Part shown: piece after piece, positions 200-53,300 of the stretch
Layout of the letters: each line of letters opens with the position of its first letter
Position numbering within the stretch: position 1 is the first letter of the stretch
Source of the DNA: an uncultured Pelagibacteraceae bacterium
GTDB taxonomy: Bacteria; Pseudomonadota; Alphaproteobacteria; Pelagibacterales; Pelagibacteraceae
Assembly (NCBI GenBank): GCA_902562205.1
Contig: CACESO010000005.1
Coordinates: 26,251-90,250 of the forward strand
Reading direction: 5' to 3'
DNA length: 64,000 nt
Translations under genes and position numbers: made by a program
Notes under the pieces: model-generated
Databases searched by the model: none
The model's input: only the letters and a program-made list of their open reading frames with translations
Told to the model about the DNA's origin: nothing

Positions 200-829
200 T
201 TATTTTGTAACTTTATATATTCCAAGCCAAGCATTGACATCTTTGCTGGATAAATAGTTTGATTTAAAAAATTCAAGTTTTTTCCATTTATCATCATTTA
301 TTAAATTGTTGATCTTTTTATCAAAACCATAATCCTTATAAACACCAACATTAATTGTAAAACAAATTAAACCGTTGTTTTTTGTAATTCTTATGAATTC
401 ATCTAAAGCATCAGGTTTGACATGCCCAAATGTAAATGTTCCAACGCAAAATACTGAATCAAATTTATCATCTTCGTATATCAATTTTTTGTTTAAATCG
501 ATCCTTTCTAAAGATTTGTAAAGACCTTGCGGCGCTAAATCTAACAATTTTTGTGATATATCAGCCCCGTAAAAATTTTGGTAACCCATTTTTTTTAGCT
601 CAACTGCAACTAAACCAGTTCCACAACCGGCATCAAATATTTCAATGTTCTTATTCTTTTGATATTTATTGAATGTTTCGGAAGCTTCTTTTGGTCCAGT
701 ATAATTCCAAGCTTCCATATCTTTGTCATACTTATTATTTAGTGCCCACTCATCATAATAAGCCGCTACATCCTCAACTTTCTTTAGTGTATGCAAAGGG
801 ACTTTATTTCCGATGTCTTTTTGGGCCAT
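200..829 (-). CDS. class I SAM-dependent methyltransferase
   Basis: A 209-residue soluble protein with the Rossmann methyltransferase motif I at residues 64-75 (IFDAGCGTGLVA), an acidic end of strand 2 (GADIS) and a motif IV-like segment (FDSVFCVGTFTFGHV). It should transfer a methyl group from S-adenosylmethionine to a small molecule or protein. The acceptor cannot be read from sequence. The N-terminus (AAYYDEWA) resembles UbiE/Coq-like and sugar-nucleotide methyltransferases. It is the first gene of a leftward unit that continues into the APS-kinase-like gene, and it is divergent from the MetF-like gene at 907 across 77 AT-rich bases. Confidence 0.8.
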   Translation of the reverse strand: MAQKDIGNKVPLHTLKKVEDVAAYYDEWALNNKYDKDMEAWNYTGPKEASETFNKYQKNKNIEIFDAGCGTGLVAVELKKMGYQNFYGADISQKLLDLAPQGLYKSLERIDLNKKLIYEDDKFDSVFCVGTFTFGHVKPDALDEFIRITKNNGLICFTINVGVYKDYGFDKKINNLINDDKWKKLEFFKSNYLSSKDVNAWLGIYKVTK

Positions 830-906: not shown

Positions 907-1635
907 ATGAATTTTTCTATAGAAATTGGGCCTAAAACAGATCTATCAACTCTGCCGGAACTAAAAGATGTCTATATAACAATGTTGCCTGGTGGGGATT
1001 TTAAAGAGACGGCAAATCAAGCTGTCCAACTAGTGAAGAAAGGTTTCAACCCTATCCCTCATTTTCCAGCAAGATCAATGGAGAATGAGCGCCAGTTAAA
1101 AGAGTATGTGAGCATCTGTAAAGGTGGGGGGGTTAAACAGGCTTTAATTATTGGAGGGGGCCGTGAACCAGCTGGTAAATTTGATAGCTCATTTCAACTT
1201 TTAGAGACTGGTTATTTTGAGAAGATGAAGATAGGAATTGCTGGACATCCTGAGGGGAGTCCTGATATATCCGATTCAGATTTGGAAAAAGCTATGCAAG
1301 ATAAAAAGCCTTATGCTGACTATATAGTAACTCAATGGTTACTTGATCCTCAGCCAATCATAGATTTTATTTCTAAACAAACAGTGCCAGTGCATGTTGG
1401 AATTACTGGGCCTCTTAAGATATCAAGCTTAATAAAATTTGCTAATATTGTAGGTGCAAAAAATTCCATAAATTTCCTTAAATCTAATTTTAGTAAGGCT
1501 CTAGATTTATTGAAACCTAAAGACCCAAATGATCTAATTGATAAATTAAAAGACCATACAGAACACTTTCATATTTATACATTTGGAGGACTTAAGGAAA
1601 CAAACAAATGGTTAAAGGATAATAACTATGCCTAA
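907..1635 (+). CDS. methylenetetrahydrofolate reductase (MetF)-like protein
   Basis: At 242 residues this is shorter than typical MetF (about 290), but it follows the family pattern: a start strand with E6 (FSIEIGP), VYITMLPGGDF, PIPHFPARSM, a Gly-rich ALIIGGGREPAG, IGIAGHPEGSP and YIVTQWLLDPQPI. MetF interconverts 5,10-methylene-THF and 5-methyl-THF using FAD. Its stop overlaps the start of the GcvT/DmdA-like gene by 8 bases, so the two are translationally coupled. The pairing suggests that it oxidises the 5-methyl-THF made by the demethylase, feeding methyl carbon into C1 oxidation; that direction is an inference. A separate biosynthetic MetF may exist elsewhere in the genome. Confidence 0.8.
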   Translation: MNFSIEIGPKTDLSTLPELKDVYITMLPGGDFKETANQAVQLVKKGFNPIPHFPARSMENERQLKEYVSICKGGGVKQALIIGGGREPAGKFDSSFQLLETGYFEKMKIGIAGHPEGSPDISDSDLEKAMQDKKPYADYIVTQWLLDPQPIIDFISKQTVPVHVGITGPLKISSLIKFANIVGAKNSINFLKSNFSKALDLLKPKDPNDLIDKLKDHTEHFHIYTFGGLKETNKWLKDNNYA

Positions 1636-3079
1636 AAAAAAGAAAGTAAGTTCGAAAAAAAGAAAGCCAAAAAAAGTGGCTAAATTAAAATCTAAGAAAG
1701 TCAGTAAGCCAATGTCAAAAGGCAGAATAATTGAGAAAGTAGATTATTCAAAAGTTTCTCATTCTACTGCTGTTGATCAATCTGATAGACATGTTCCATA
1801 CAATTTAAGACAAAGTGGTCCAACTCAAGTTGAAATGTTAATTTCTACAAGAGTTAGAAAATCTCCTTACTGGCATTTATCTATGAAAGCTGGATGTTGG
1901 AGAGCAACTGTTTACAATAGAATTTATCATCCACGAGGTTATGTAAGACCAGAAAAAGGTGGAGCGATGGTTGAATATGAGGCTATTAAAAAACATGTAA
2001 CAATGTGGAATGTAGCAGTTGAAAGACAAATAAGAGTAAAAGGTCCAGATGCTGAAAAATTTACAGACTACGTTATTACAAGAGATGCAACAAAAATTTC
2101 TCCAATGCGTGCTAGATATGTAATTTTATGTAATTACAAAGGTGGTGTCTTAAATGATCCTATTCTATTAAGAATATCTGAAGATGAATTTTGGTTTAGT
2201 TTATCGGATAGTGACATTGGCCTTTATCTGCAAGGTGTTAATGCTGACAAAAGATTTAATGTAGAAATTGATGAGATAGATGCATGTCCAGTTCAAATTC
2301 AAGGTCCAAAATCTAAGGCTTTGATGAATGATTTAATAGGAAATCAAGTTGATTTAGACAATATGCCTTTTTATGGATTAGCTGAAGCTAAAGTTGGAGG
2401 GAGAAGTTGTGTGATTTCACAATCAGGTTTTTCAGGTGAAGCTGGATATGAAATTTATTTAAGAAATGCAACTTTATATGCAGAGGATATGTGGAATGCA
2501 GTTTTAAAAGCTGGAAAAAAACACAATCTAATGGTTATCGCTCCAGCCCACCACAGAAGAATACAAGCAGGTATTTTATCTTGGGGTCAAGACATGGATA
2601 ACGAGCATAATCCATTTCAATGTAACTTAGGTTATCAAGTTTCATTATCTGGAAAAGGTGTTTGGGAGAAACAAAGAGACTATGTTGGTAAAGAAGCTTT
2701 GGAAAAAATGAAAAGTGAAATATCTTCTGGAGGAAAACCTTACAAACTTCAACTAGTAGGAATGGAACTCGGAGGAAAACCAATAGAGGAATATGCACCT
2801 GATTTTTGGTTAATATCTGAGGATGGAAAGAATCCAGTAGGATTTATTACATCGCCTTGGTACCATCCAGAAAAAGGGACTAACATTGCAATGGGGTATG
2901 TGCCGTTCGATGGAACTTTGAACAAGAATGGATTTCCAATGGGCAAAGTTGGAAGAAAATTTAAAATTCATCTTCCGAAGAAATATTGTGAAAAGGGAGA
3001 TGATCCGGTTGATGCTGTGGTCGTTGATATACCTTTCACAGAGTCATACAATCCTAATACAAGAGAAGTTGCTAAATAA
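1628..3079 (+). CDS. GcvT/DmdA-family tetrahydrofolate-dependent demethylase with Lys-rich N-terminal extension
   Basis: A 483-residue protein. About 70 residues of unusual N-terminus come first; the first 30 are almost all Lys, Ser and Arg (MPKKKKVSSKKRKPKK). The GcvT fold follows, starting near STRVRKSPY, with VTMWNVAVERQIRVKGPDA, VQIQGPKS, SGFSGEAGYEIY and a C-terminal barrel. The core resembles DMSP demethylase DmdA and related GcvT paralogues, which move a methyl or aminomethyl group to THF. Bona fide DmdA is about 370 residues, so this is a longer paralogue whose methyl donor (DMSP, a methylated amine, or another) is not settled by sequence. It is coupled to the MetF-like gene and followed by a strong terminator. 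Confidence 0.75.
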   Translation: MPKKKKVSSKKRKPKKVAKLKSKKVSKPMSKGRIIEKVDYSKVSHSTAVDQSDRHVPYNLRQSGPTQVEMLISTRVRKSPYWHLSMKAGCWRATVYNRIYHPRGYVRPEKGGAMVEYEAIKKHVTMWNVAVERQIRVKGPDAEKFTDYVITRDATKISPMRARYVILCNYKGGVLNDPILLRISEDEFWFSLSDSDIGLYLQGVNADKRFNVEIDEIDACPVQIQGPKSKALMNDLIGNQVDLDNMPFYGLAEAKVGGRSCVISQSGFSGEAGYEIYLRNATLYAEDMWNAVLKAGKKHNLMVIAPAHHRRIQAGILSWGQDMDNEHNPFQCNLGYQVSLSGKGVWEKQRDYVGKEALEKMKSEISSGGKPYKLQLVGMELGGKPIEEYAPDFWLISEDGKNPVGFITSPWYHPEKGTNIAMGYVPFDGTLNKNGFPMGKVGRKFKIHLPKKYCEKGDDPVDAVVVDIPFTESYNPNTREVAK

Positions 3080-3090
3080 AATTTAAAATA

Positions 3091-3114
3091 GGGGGGTAAT
3101 CCCCCCTTTTTTTT
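3091..3114 (+). terminator. Rho-independent terminator of the MetF/DmdA-like operon
   Basis: A perfect six-base G/C stem, GGGGGG TAAT CCCCCC, is followed by eight T residues and lies 12 bases after the stop of the DmdA-like gene. In this AT-rich DNA it is one of the few GC-rich hairpins and is a textbook intrinsic terminator. Confidence 0.9.
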
Positions 3115-11781: not shown

Positions 11782-13470
11782 ATGAAAAAATTTAAATCTG
11801 ACATAGAAATAGCTAGAGGTTGTAAGCTCAAACCAATTTCAAAAATTTTAAAAAAAATAAATGTTCCTGATAATCCAAGTGCTTTTAGTCCAATGGGAAG
11901 GCATATAGCAAAAATAAATTTTGATTTTTTAAATAAATTAAAAAAGAAAAAGGATGGTTATCTTATACTTGTTACAGCCATTACTCCGACACCAGCTGGG
12001 GAAGGTAAAACGACTACTTCTGTTGGTCTAAATGATGGATTAAATAAAATTGGAAAAAAATCTATTGTTTGTCTTAGGGAACCCAGTCTTGGACCTTCAT
12101 TTGGTATGAAAGGTGGGGCAGCAGGTGGTGGGTATGCTCAAGTTGTTCCTATGGAACAGATAAATCTTCATTTCACTGGAGATTTTCATGCGATCACATC
12201 AGCACACAATTTATTATCTGCAATGATTGATAATCATATTTACTGGGGAAACAAACTTAATATTGATGAAAAAAAAATAGTTTGGAAGAGAGTAATGGAT
12301 ATGAATGATCGTGCTTTAAGATTTATTGACATTAATACCAGTGGTGTTGCAAAAGATTTTAGAAGAATAGATGGCTTTGATATAACTGTTGCATCGGAAG
12401 TCATGGCTATTTTTTGTTTAGCTAAAAACTTAAATGATTTAGAAAAAAAAATTGGAAATATAACAATAGCTTACAATAAACAAGGTCAGTCGATTTTTGC
12501 AAAAGATTTAAATGCTCAGGGACCAATGACTGTTCTTTTAAAAGAAGCAATAAGACCCAATGTTACTCAAAGTTTAGAACATAACCCAGCTTTTATTCAT
12601 GGAGGTCCATTTGCAAATATTGCTCATGGCTGTAATTCTGTAATCGCTACAACAGCAGCCCTCAAGCTATCTGACTATGTTGTTACTGAAGCAGGATTCG
12701 GTGCAGACCTTGGTGCTGAAAAATTTTTAAATATTAAATGTAGAAAGGCAGGATTAAAACCTAGCTGTGTTATAATTGTTGCAACTATAAGAGCATTAAA
12801 GATGCACGGAGGTGTAGAAAAAGAAAATCTTAAAAAAGAAGACACCAACTCTTTAAAAAAAGGTTTAGTCAATTTAGAAAGACATATTTTAAATATTAAA
12901 AAATTTGGACTAGAGCCAATCGTAGCGATTAACCATTTTGCTTTAGATACAAAAAAAGAGATAGATGTTGTTCTTAATTTTTGTAAGAATATGAATGTCC
13001 AGGTTAGTGAATGTAAACACTGGGCAATGGGGGGAAAAGGCACAACTGACCTCGCTAAAAAGGTAGTCAAAACATGTAAAAATTCAAAAAAAAGTAATTT
13101 TAAATTATTGTATGAAGATAATTTAAATCTTTGGGATAAAATTGAAAAAATTGTTAAAGAAATTTATAGAGGTAATGGAATTACTGCAAATGAAGATGTA
13201 AAAGAACAATTAAAAGTTTTTGAAAATAACGGTTATAAGAGTTTACCTGTTTGTATAGCTAAAACCCAATATAGTTTTTCAACAGATCCAAAGTTAAAAG
13301 GAGCTCCATCAAACCATGAAATTCCAATAAGAGAAGTGAGATTATCATCTGGAGCCGAATTTATTGTAGTTGTTTGCGGATCAATTATGACTATGCCTGG
13401 TCTACCCAGAGTTCCTGCAGCTAATAATATTAAGTTAAATAAAAAAGGTGATGTAGAAGGACTATTTTAA
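11782..13470 (+). CDS. fhs: formate-tetrahydrofolate ligase
   Basis: A 562-residue enzyme that makes 10-formyl-THF from formate, THF and ATP, or runs in reverse to yield formate and ATP. The P-loop [15 protein letters not shown] (residues ~71-85), [40 protein letters not shown] and the C-terminal [15 protein letters not shown] are all classical. Length is normal. With the MetF-like/GcvT-like pair 9 kb away it supplies the formate end of folate C1 oxidation. It stands alone between divergent and convergent neighbours, with one base to gpsA. Confidence 0.97.
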
Positions 13471-53158: not shown

Positions 53159-53218
53159 CTCCTTTTTACTCTATCTCTTGTAAAAGTTATCCACAACGTA
53201 TCAAAATGTAGTTTCGGT

Positions 53219-53300
53219 GTTCACGTTTTGATTCACTTTTGATTCAATTTCAGACTCAAAATACAACCTATTTGACTATATCAATTTATTAGGCTATTAA
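53219..53300 (+). promoter_or_regulatory. umuDC promoter region with candidate SOS box and tandem repeat
   Basis: GTTCACGTTTTGATTC (53219-53234) is close to the GTTC-N7-GTTC operator. Overlapping it is a direct repeat, TTTTGATTCA at 53226-53235 and 53237-53246, one helical turn apart. A possible promoter follows: TTGACT (53272-53277), 17 bases, TATTAA (53295-53300). The boxes sit about 26 bases above this -35, which is further upstream than usual for a repressor; an alternative promoter nearer the boxes, or activity on the divergent GFA genes, is possible. Confidence 0.45.

Follow-up and report, generated by a model that had tools for sequence, protein, structure and literature searches.

Near one end of the 64,000-nucleotide stretch of DNA analysed here (the window), which lies within a SAR11-type genome of 1.03 Mb (G000; 89% complete), a metF-like gene is followed by a gene for a methyltransferase of the GcvT/DmdA superfamily (hereafter AMT; Table 1). 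Both open reading frames, which the first-pass annotation had described as a MetF-like gene coupled to a GcvT/DmdA paralogue, are present at 907-3079 and overlap by eight nucleotides. The identical overlap was found in all 25 SAR11 loci compared (25/25); the translational coupling of metF and AMT is therefore beyond chance, and, for the same reason, the AMT start codon is correct. The gene for formate-THF ligase (Fhs), which serves this C1 oxidation route at a later stage, is located farther downstream in the window and adjoins metF-AMT in other SAR11 loci (L159, L168).

Table 1. Coordinates of the metF-AMT locus and of other features in the window
Feature	Position	Strand	Remarks
SAM-dependent methyltransferase gene	200-829	-	divergent from metF; homologues adjoin a DMGDH or Rieske gene in L161, L164, L170
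metF-like gene	907..1635	+	242 aa; short relative of the Sphingobium SYK-6 MTHFR
AMT	1628..3079	+	483 aa; GcvT/DmdA-superfamily methyltransferase; SAR11_1265 orthologue
metF stop/AMT start overlap	1628..1635	+	8 nt
AMT Lys/Ser-rich tail, residues 1-28	1628..1711	+	14/28 Lys; lineage-specific; predicted disordered
AMT clade motif VDQSDRHVPYNLRQ, residues 49-62	1772..1813	+	without counterpart in DmdA
AMT GCV_T folate-binding domain, residues 104-335	1937..2632	+	Pfam
AMT Asn176-Asp177-Pro178	2153..2161	+	equals DmdA N107-D108-P109; GcvT has Asp-Asp
AMT F268...Y277 segment	2429..2458	+	Phe for DmdA Trp197, Gly-Glu for Lys199-Gln200; E275 and Y277 kept
Terminator-like hairpin GGGGGG-TAAT-CCCCCC-TTTTTTTT	3091..3114	+	T8 tail; 3' of AMT; read directly from the sequence
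Formate-THF ligase gene (Fhs)	11782..13467	+	acts later in the C1 oxidation route
SAR11_0636 sRNA	53179-53268	-	Rfam RF01827; 96.3 bits (gathering 67)

The gene pair is not new because its orthologues, SAR11_1264/1265 of Candidatus Pelagibacter ubique HTCC1062, which are arranged in the same order, were recorded in 2011, with the function of the aminomethyltransferase left unassigned (Sun et al. 2011, PMC3160333). The authors of that work speculated that SAR11_1265 removes the second methyl group of DMSP, with MMPA as the donor, and did not put forward glycine betaine; the dmgdh gene of HTCC1062 (SAR11_1253) is eleven tags away from metF (PMC3160333).

The MetF-like protein of the window scores below the curated cut-off of the Pfam MTHFR family (E 5e-4; 19.8 bits against 24), and its best match in the PDB is the MTHFR of Sphingobium SYK-6 (7xg9; E 3e-33, residues 16-237); a PF02219 search of the genome bin identified no second MTHFR. 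Among the nine MetF proteins compared, E6 and Q143, which, from E. coli MetF, we take to be the catalytic Glu and the folate-site Gln, are invariant, and the Asp of the Gly-Asp motif, presumably a FAD-site residue, is replaced in SAR11 and in L061 and is present in several further MetF proteins encoded in these clusters. The FAD-site check named in the first-pass annotation is thus answered only in part, the Asp being lost but the presumed catalytic Glu and folate-site Gln conserved. By its family scores, we treat the protein as a divergent MTHFR-like one. SAR11 bacteria lack both MetH and MetE (PMC12478193), and 5-methyl-THF therefore has no known biosynthetic use there, so that oxidation of 5-methyl-THF is the likely direction of the MetF reaction in these bacteria.

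AMT belongs to the GCV_T superfamily (E 6e-41; 140.8 bits against the Pfam cut-off of 25.6), and the nearest solved protein in both sequence and fold is DmdA (3TFH; Foldseek search with the AMT model: 3tfh, E 6.6e-36, TM 0.92 by target length). The score of AMT with the DmdA model NF009133 is 242 bits, below the cut-off of 410; the members of the AMT clade that were searched score 225-275 bits, with an outlier, G075, at 337. The true DmdA of the same genome (contig C7) reaches 553-560 bits and is 69% identical to 3TFH; AMT is 31% identical to this protein. The scores with two GcvT models are below the cut-offs as well (155 against 300 bits and 133 against 236 bits). An IQ-TREE phylogeny with 66 proteins places 37 AMT sequences in a single clade with 100/100 support (38 with G075 included, at 92/78); the clade branches with DmdA at 100/100 and is far from GcvT, FAD-GcvT fusions and TMAO demethylase. 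The verified DmdA proteins group with the DmdA of the window genome and with a third, DmdA-like group, and the AMT clade is positioned next to both DmdA and this group. The suspicion that the protein lies outside both DmdA and GcvT is borne out by this tree: judged by its sequence, AMT represents a separate clade beside DmdA that is neither DmdA nor GcvT.

The third DmdA-like clade (L168:11160-12293, L174, L175, L177) occurs in the second SAR11 family, is sister to DmdA and scores under the DmdA cut-off; its genes are found near DMGDH in G037, G038 and G039.

LigM and DesA serve Sphingobium SYK-6 as THF-dependent demethylases. The length of AMT and the match of the adjacent MetF to the SYK-6 protein prompted us to consider membership in these families, which is excluded by the scores (34 against 580 bits with NF047885 and 49 against 800 bits with NF047633). 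Nevertheless, both cases would pair a THF-dependent demethylase with a MetF from one subfamily (7xg9), and the working mode of LigM plus MetF may be considered a fair analogy for AMT plus MetF, although LigM and DesA act on aromatic methoxy donors and have other gene neighbours.

As the first-pass annotation pointed out, AMT is over 100 residues longer than DmdA (483 against 369 aa), and the Lys/Ser-rich tail accounts for only part of the difference. In the AlphaFold2 model, residues 1-74 have pLDDT below 50, and the confident core spans residues ~75-475. The tail was found in three of the 25 SAR11 genomes (the window genome, G016 and G032), differs in length among these, being shorter than the 28 residues of the window protein in G016 and G032, and is absent from the other SAR11, in which the orthologues consist of 447-454 aa; other members of the clade are about 435-460 aa long. 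Hence the very basic N-terminus, noted as foreign to the family, is real, but its relevance did not hold up: the tail is low-complexity sequence added in a single lineage, does not characterise the family and is probably of no relevance; with three close relatives, variable length and predicted disorder, we dismissed it as a functional domain. The motif VDQSDR.VP.NLRQ, by comparison, is common to all members of the AMT clade and missing in DmdA, and this segment is the clade's own N-terminal feature.

In common with DmdA, the AMT clade has Asn107-Asp108-Pro109, Trp120, Ser122, Glu204 and mostly Tyr206 (DmdA numbering). The position of Trp197 is occupied by Phe in 36 of the 38 AMT-clade sequences, and Lys199-Gln200 are replaced by Gly-Glu, so that not all substrate residues are kept. 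The Trp that we equate with Trp197 has been named DMSP-specific (PMC7487153; the numbering in that work is offset by 26 from 3TFH, and the position was matched via the Glu and Tyr also listed there). The DmdA-type Asn-Asp-Pro, Trp and Ser, in place of the Asp-Asp of GcvT, suggest an enzyme of the redox-neutral type, and we read the overall pattern as indicative of redox-neutral methyl transfer from a donor that either replaces DMSP or is used in addition to it.

These residues also bear on the possibility that AMT is a methylene-transferring enzyme of the GcvT, dimethylglycine or sarcosine type that acts on the product of a separate oxidase. The GCV_T fold and the SGE.GYE motif, which is common to AMT and GcvT, would fit such an activity. 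However, Asn-Asp stands in place of Asp-Asp, AMT has no FAD domain and branches with DmdA with full support, the genome already encodes a separate GcvT, SoxA and two FAD fusions, and the coupling to MetF argues for methyl-THF as the product. Methylene transfer thus appears highly improbable.

The AMT clade is widespread. At a threshold of E 1e-60, AMT was matched in 53 of 61 relatives, almost always by a close orthologue, and 18 of 385 other genomes sampled from the class carry AMT at E 1e-75. A genome scan yielded at least 582 AMT-encoding stretches, the best 80 of which include Marinobacter, Halomonas, Litchfieldella, SAR86 and Enterovibrio as well as Arthrobacter, Brevibacterium, Nocardioides, Gemmatimonadota and Acidobacteriota; on haloarchaeal plasmids, AMT is encoded at 50-57% identity. 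The clade thus ranges over Proteobacteria, Actinomycetota, Gemmatimonadota, Acidobacteriota and haloarchaea. DmdA above the cut-off (profile score against 410 bits) is absent from 25 of 37 AMT genomes.

Outside SAR11, we surveyed the neighbours of AMT at 101 loci, mostly within about 10 kb on each side. Fusions of the FAD-GcvT kind, resembling dimethylglycine dehydrogenase (DMGDH), are found near AMT at 68 of these loci, MetF at 46, the sarcosine oxidase subunits SoxB and SoxA at 24 and 23, respectively, Fhs at 20 and BCCT transporters at 10. Of the 101 loci, 78 have one or more marker genes of C1 or methylglycine metabolism, and none was detected nearby at 23. Among the arrangements are soxBDAG-DMGDH-MetF-AMT (L061, L062, L075) and BCCT-DMGDH-AMT in SAR86 (L125, L129). 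With PF16350 as the DMGDH marker, 13 of 22 AMT genes are located within 10 kb of a DMGDH gene, compared to 0.58 expected, and chance is not a good explanation for this proximity. In AMT-bearing genomes, DMGDH is found within 10 kb of 18 of 34 AMT genes and of none of 11 DmdA genes (Fisher p 0.0014, a value that is indicative only because related genomes are not independent). In Rhodosalinus, a MetF with the usual SFEFFPP start, which is missed by SYK-6-type queries, is encoded directly after AMT, in what looks like an independent recruitment; we considered canonical MetF as a common neighbour of AMT and found only this one case.

In haloarchaea, the AMT-bearing plasmids of Haladaptatus and Salinigranum also carry MetF, Fhs, folate genes and two FAD-GcvT enzymes, the Haladaptatus plasmid adding formate dehydrogenase, GlyA and IlvA to the cluster; in Halomicrococcus, AMT is accompanied by MetF, FolD, IlvA and a BCCT transporter. 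Haloarchaeal plasmids (L055-L058) contain folate C1 clusters with varying sets of FolP, FolD, Fhs, MetF, AMT and pab genes, which suggests that the folate C1 route moves as a block on these plasmids.

The earlier rationale for the pair, in which a demethylase yields 5-methyl-THF and a MetF then oxidises it, gains support from the SAR11 coupling together with the recurrence of MetF, DMGDH, Sox and Fhs neighbours across phyla. The same contexts weigh on the 2011 speculation that the donor is methylmercaptopropionate, the carrier of the second DMSP methyl. The kinship of AMT with DmdA and the adjacency to metF are compatible with this proposal; however, MMPA is a neutral thioether and, on chemical grounds, should be a poor methyl donor, many genomes that lack DmdA carry a member of the clade, and AMT lies beside methylglycine genes in haloarchaea, Gemmatimonadota and actinomycetes, so that we give MMPA hardly any credence.

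In the window genome, a DMGDH gene, the product of which is most similar to mammalian DMGDH, is located ~5 kb upstream of metF, beyond the window, along with genes for ETF and ETF-QO. In three other SAR11 genomes (G022, G004 and G025), the genes upstream of metF-AMT, in the same orientation and separated by 51-64 nt, encode a substrate-binding protein (SBP) and a choline/betaine-type permease; the set forms an apparent operon from which BHMT and DMGDH genes diverge. The SBP is of the OpuAC family, and its closest relative is the DMSP binder RnDmpX (7YLE; 34.8% identity, 7/8 DMSP contacts kept); for this reason, we withdrew the OpuAC-like SBP as proof of glycine betaine. In L159, an acyl-CoA ligase gene is found beside the pair; its identification as DmdB is unsupported (323 bits against a cut-off of 822). 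In G016, egtB and egtD (ergothioneine) are directly divergent from metF (L162:11804-13935), and the same clusters are found in L166. In seven SAR11 loci, a Rieske oxygenase, for which the nearest solved structure is the carnitine monooxygenase CntA, is encoded near and divergently from metF-AMT (L157:11261-12487, with equivalents in L156, L158, L161, L164, L166 and L170).

Because the SBP of these islands is closest to RnDmpX, DMSP stays a serious rival in SAR11: AMT could be a second DMSP demethylase (DMSP + THF -> MMPA + 5-methyl-THF) or a dual enzyme acting on DMSP and the nearly isosteric glycine betaine, a notion that is strengthened by the position of DmdA as the nearest solved structure. 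Overall, we regard this alternative as rather unlikely, considering that AMT scores far from the DmdA cut-off in a genome that already has a DmdA at 560 bits, that the DMSP-specific Trp197 is replaced by Phe in nearly the entire clade, that the neighbours outside SAR11 are methylglycine genes as opposed to DMSP genes and that most of the AMT genomes have no DmdA above the cut-off. The same chemistry on a different quaternary ammonium compound, such as choline, carnitine or proline betaine, seems less likely still: BCCT and OpuAC-family transporters accept a broad range of ligands, and the CntA-like Rieske oxygenase beside metF in several SAR11 genomes would fit such a substrate, but the DMGDH and sarcosine enzymes that adjoin AMT in many phyla fit a dimethylglycine product better.

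Other enzymes for the removal of the first betaine methyl are encoded alongside AMT in part of the genomes. MtgB (PF06253) was identified in 4 and GbcA above the cut-off in 2 of 36 AMT genomes or records, and SAR11-type BHMT in 17 of 36 AMT genomes (a largely overlapping set), including three SAR11 genomes where it is encoded in the same island as metF-AMT; AMT is therefore not the sole glycine betaine demethylase everywhere. In twelve AMT genomes, among these the single-contig G255 and G341 and the window bin, where absence is weak because the bin is incomplete, no BHMT, MtgB or GbcA-like match above 300 bits was detected. All these enzymes share the conversion of glycine betaine to dimethylglycine with the reaction proposed here, but BHMT yields methionine, GbcAB uses O2 and gives formaldehyde, and MtgBCD needs cobalamin, whereas AMT would need only THF. 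When supplied with 14C-methyl glycine betaine, HTCC1062 oxidised the label to CO2 and incorporated a negligible amount (PMC3160333). The bhmT gene lies downstream of a SAM-V riboswitch and is upregulated under sulfur limitation, whereas the SAR11_1264/1265 transcripts decrease 5- to 10-fold in stationary phase in both treatments (PMC5069961). BHMT would thus behave as a methionine gene. Near the SAR11 BHMT islands, we found no SAM-V riboswitch. A separate catabolic betaine demethylase beside a methionine-type BHMT would make sense.

From the fold, clade, conserved residues, coupling and recurrent neighbours computed here, we infer the activity of AMT, its direction and its substrate. In the most general terms, AMT is very probably an onium demethylase that feeds MetF; like DmdA, from which it differs in score, substrate residues, N-terminal motif and neighbours, it would bind THF and catalyse a redox-neutral methyl transfer. 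The methyl donor, which the first-pass annotation gave as unknown, can be narrowed to a methyl-onium compound, for which glycine betaine is the likeliest candidate and may well be the main donor; the enzyme would most likely be a folate-dependent, cobalamin- and oxygen-independent glycine betaine:THF methyltransferase. AMT would take a methyl group from the osmolyte without oxidation, forming 5-methyl-THF and leaving dimethylglycine; the coupled MetF would convert 5-methyl-THF oxidatively into methylene-THF, the carbon of which would then reach CO2 through FolD, Fhs and formate dehydrogenase. Dimethylglycine would pass to DMGDH and the sarcosine enzymes, which would release the other two methyls as methylene-THF. 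The coexistence with BHMT in 17 of 36 genomes, the DmpX-like SBP, the 23 of 101 loci without marker genes nearby and the loss of the MetF Asp are points against this reading.

Although the metF-AMT pair has been known, the breadth of the clade and its glycine-betaine-breakdown neighbours point to a hitherto unassigned function; the open-licence literature searched contains no report of such an activity. On an evenly balanced judgement, the SAR11_1265 clade could represent a widespread glycine betaine:THF methyltransferase that requires neither cobalamin nor oxygen nor homocysteine, and could channel the first methyl of betaine into catabolism in SAR11, SAR86, Marinobacter relatives, actinomycetes and haloarchaea. 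Few marine osmolytes are as abundant as glycine betaine, and a 2025 paper called the mechanisms of its first demethylation elusive until then (PMC12478193). SAR11 has no MtgC, and BHMT has been assumed to act, yet the betaine methyls are burnt to CO2; if the proposal is correct, a folate-dependent enzyme produced jointly with MetF would fill this gap and would explain the carriers without detected BHMT, MtgB or GbcA. In that case, the 'DmdA-like' labels on the AMT clade would misassign a nitrogen-osmolyte enzyme to sulfur cycling.
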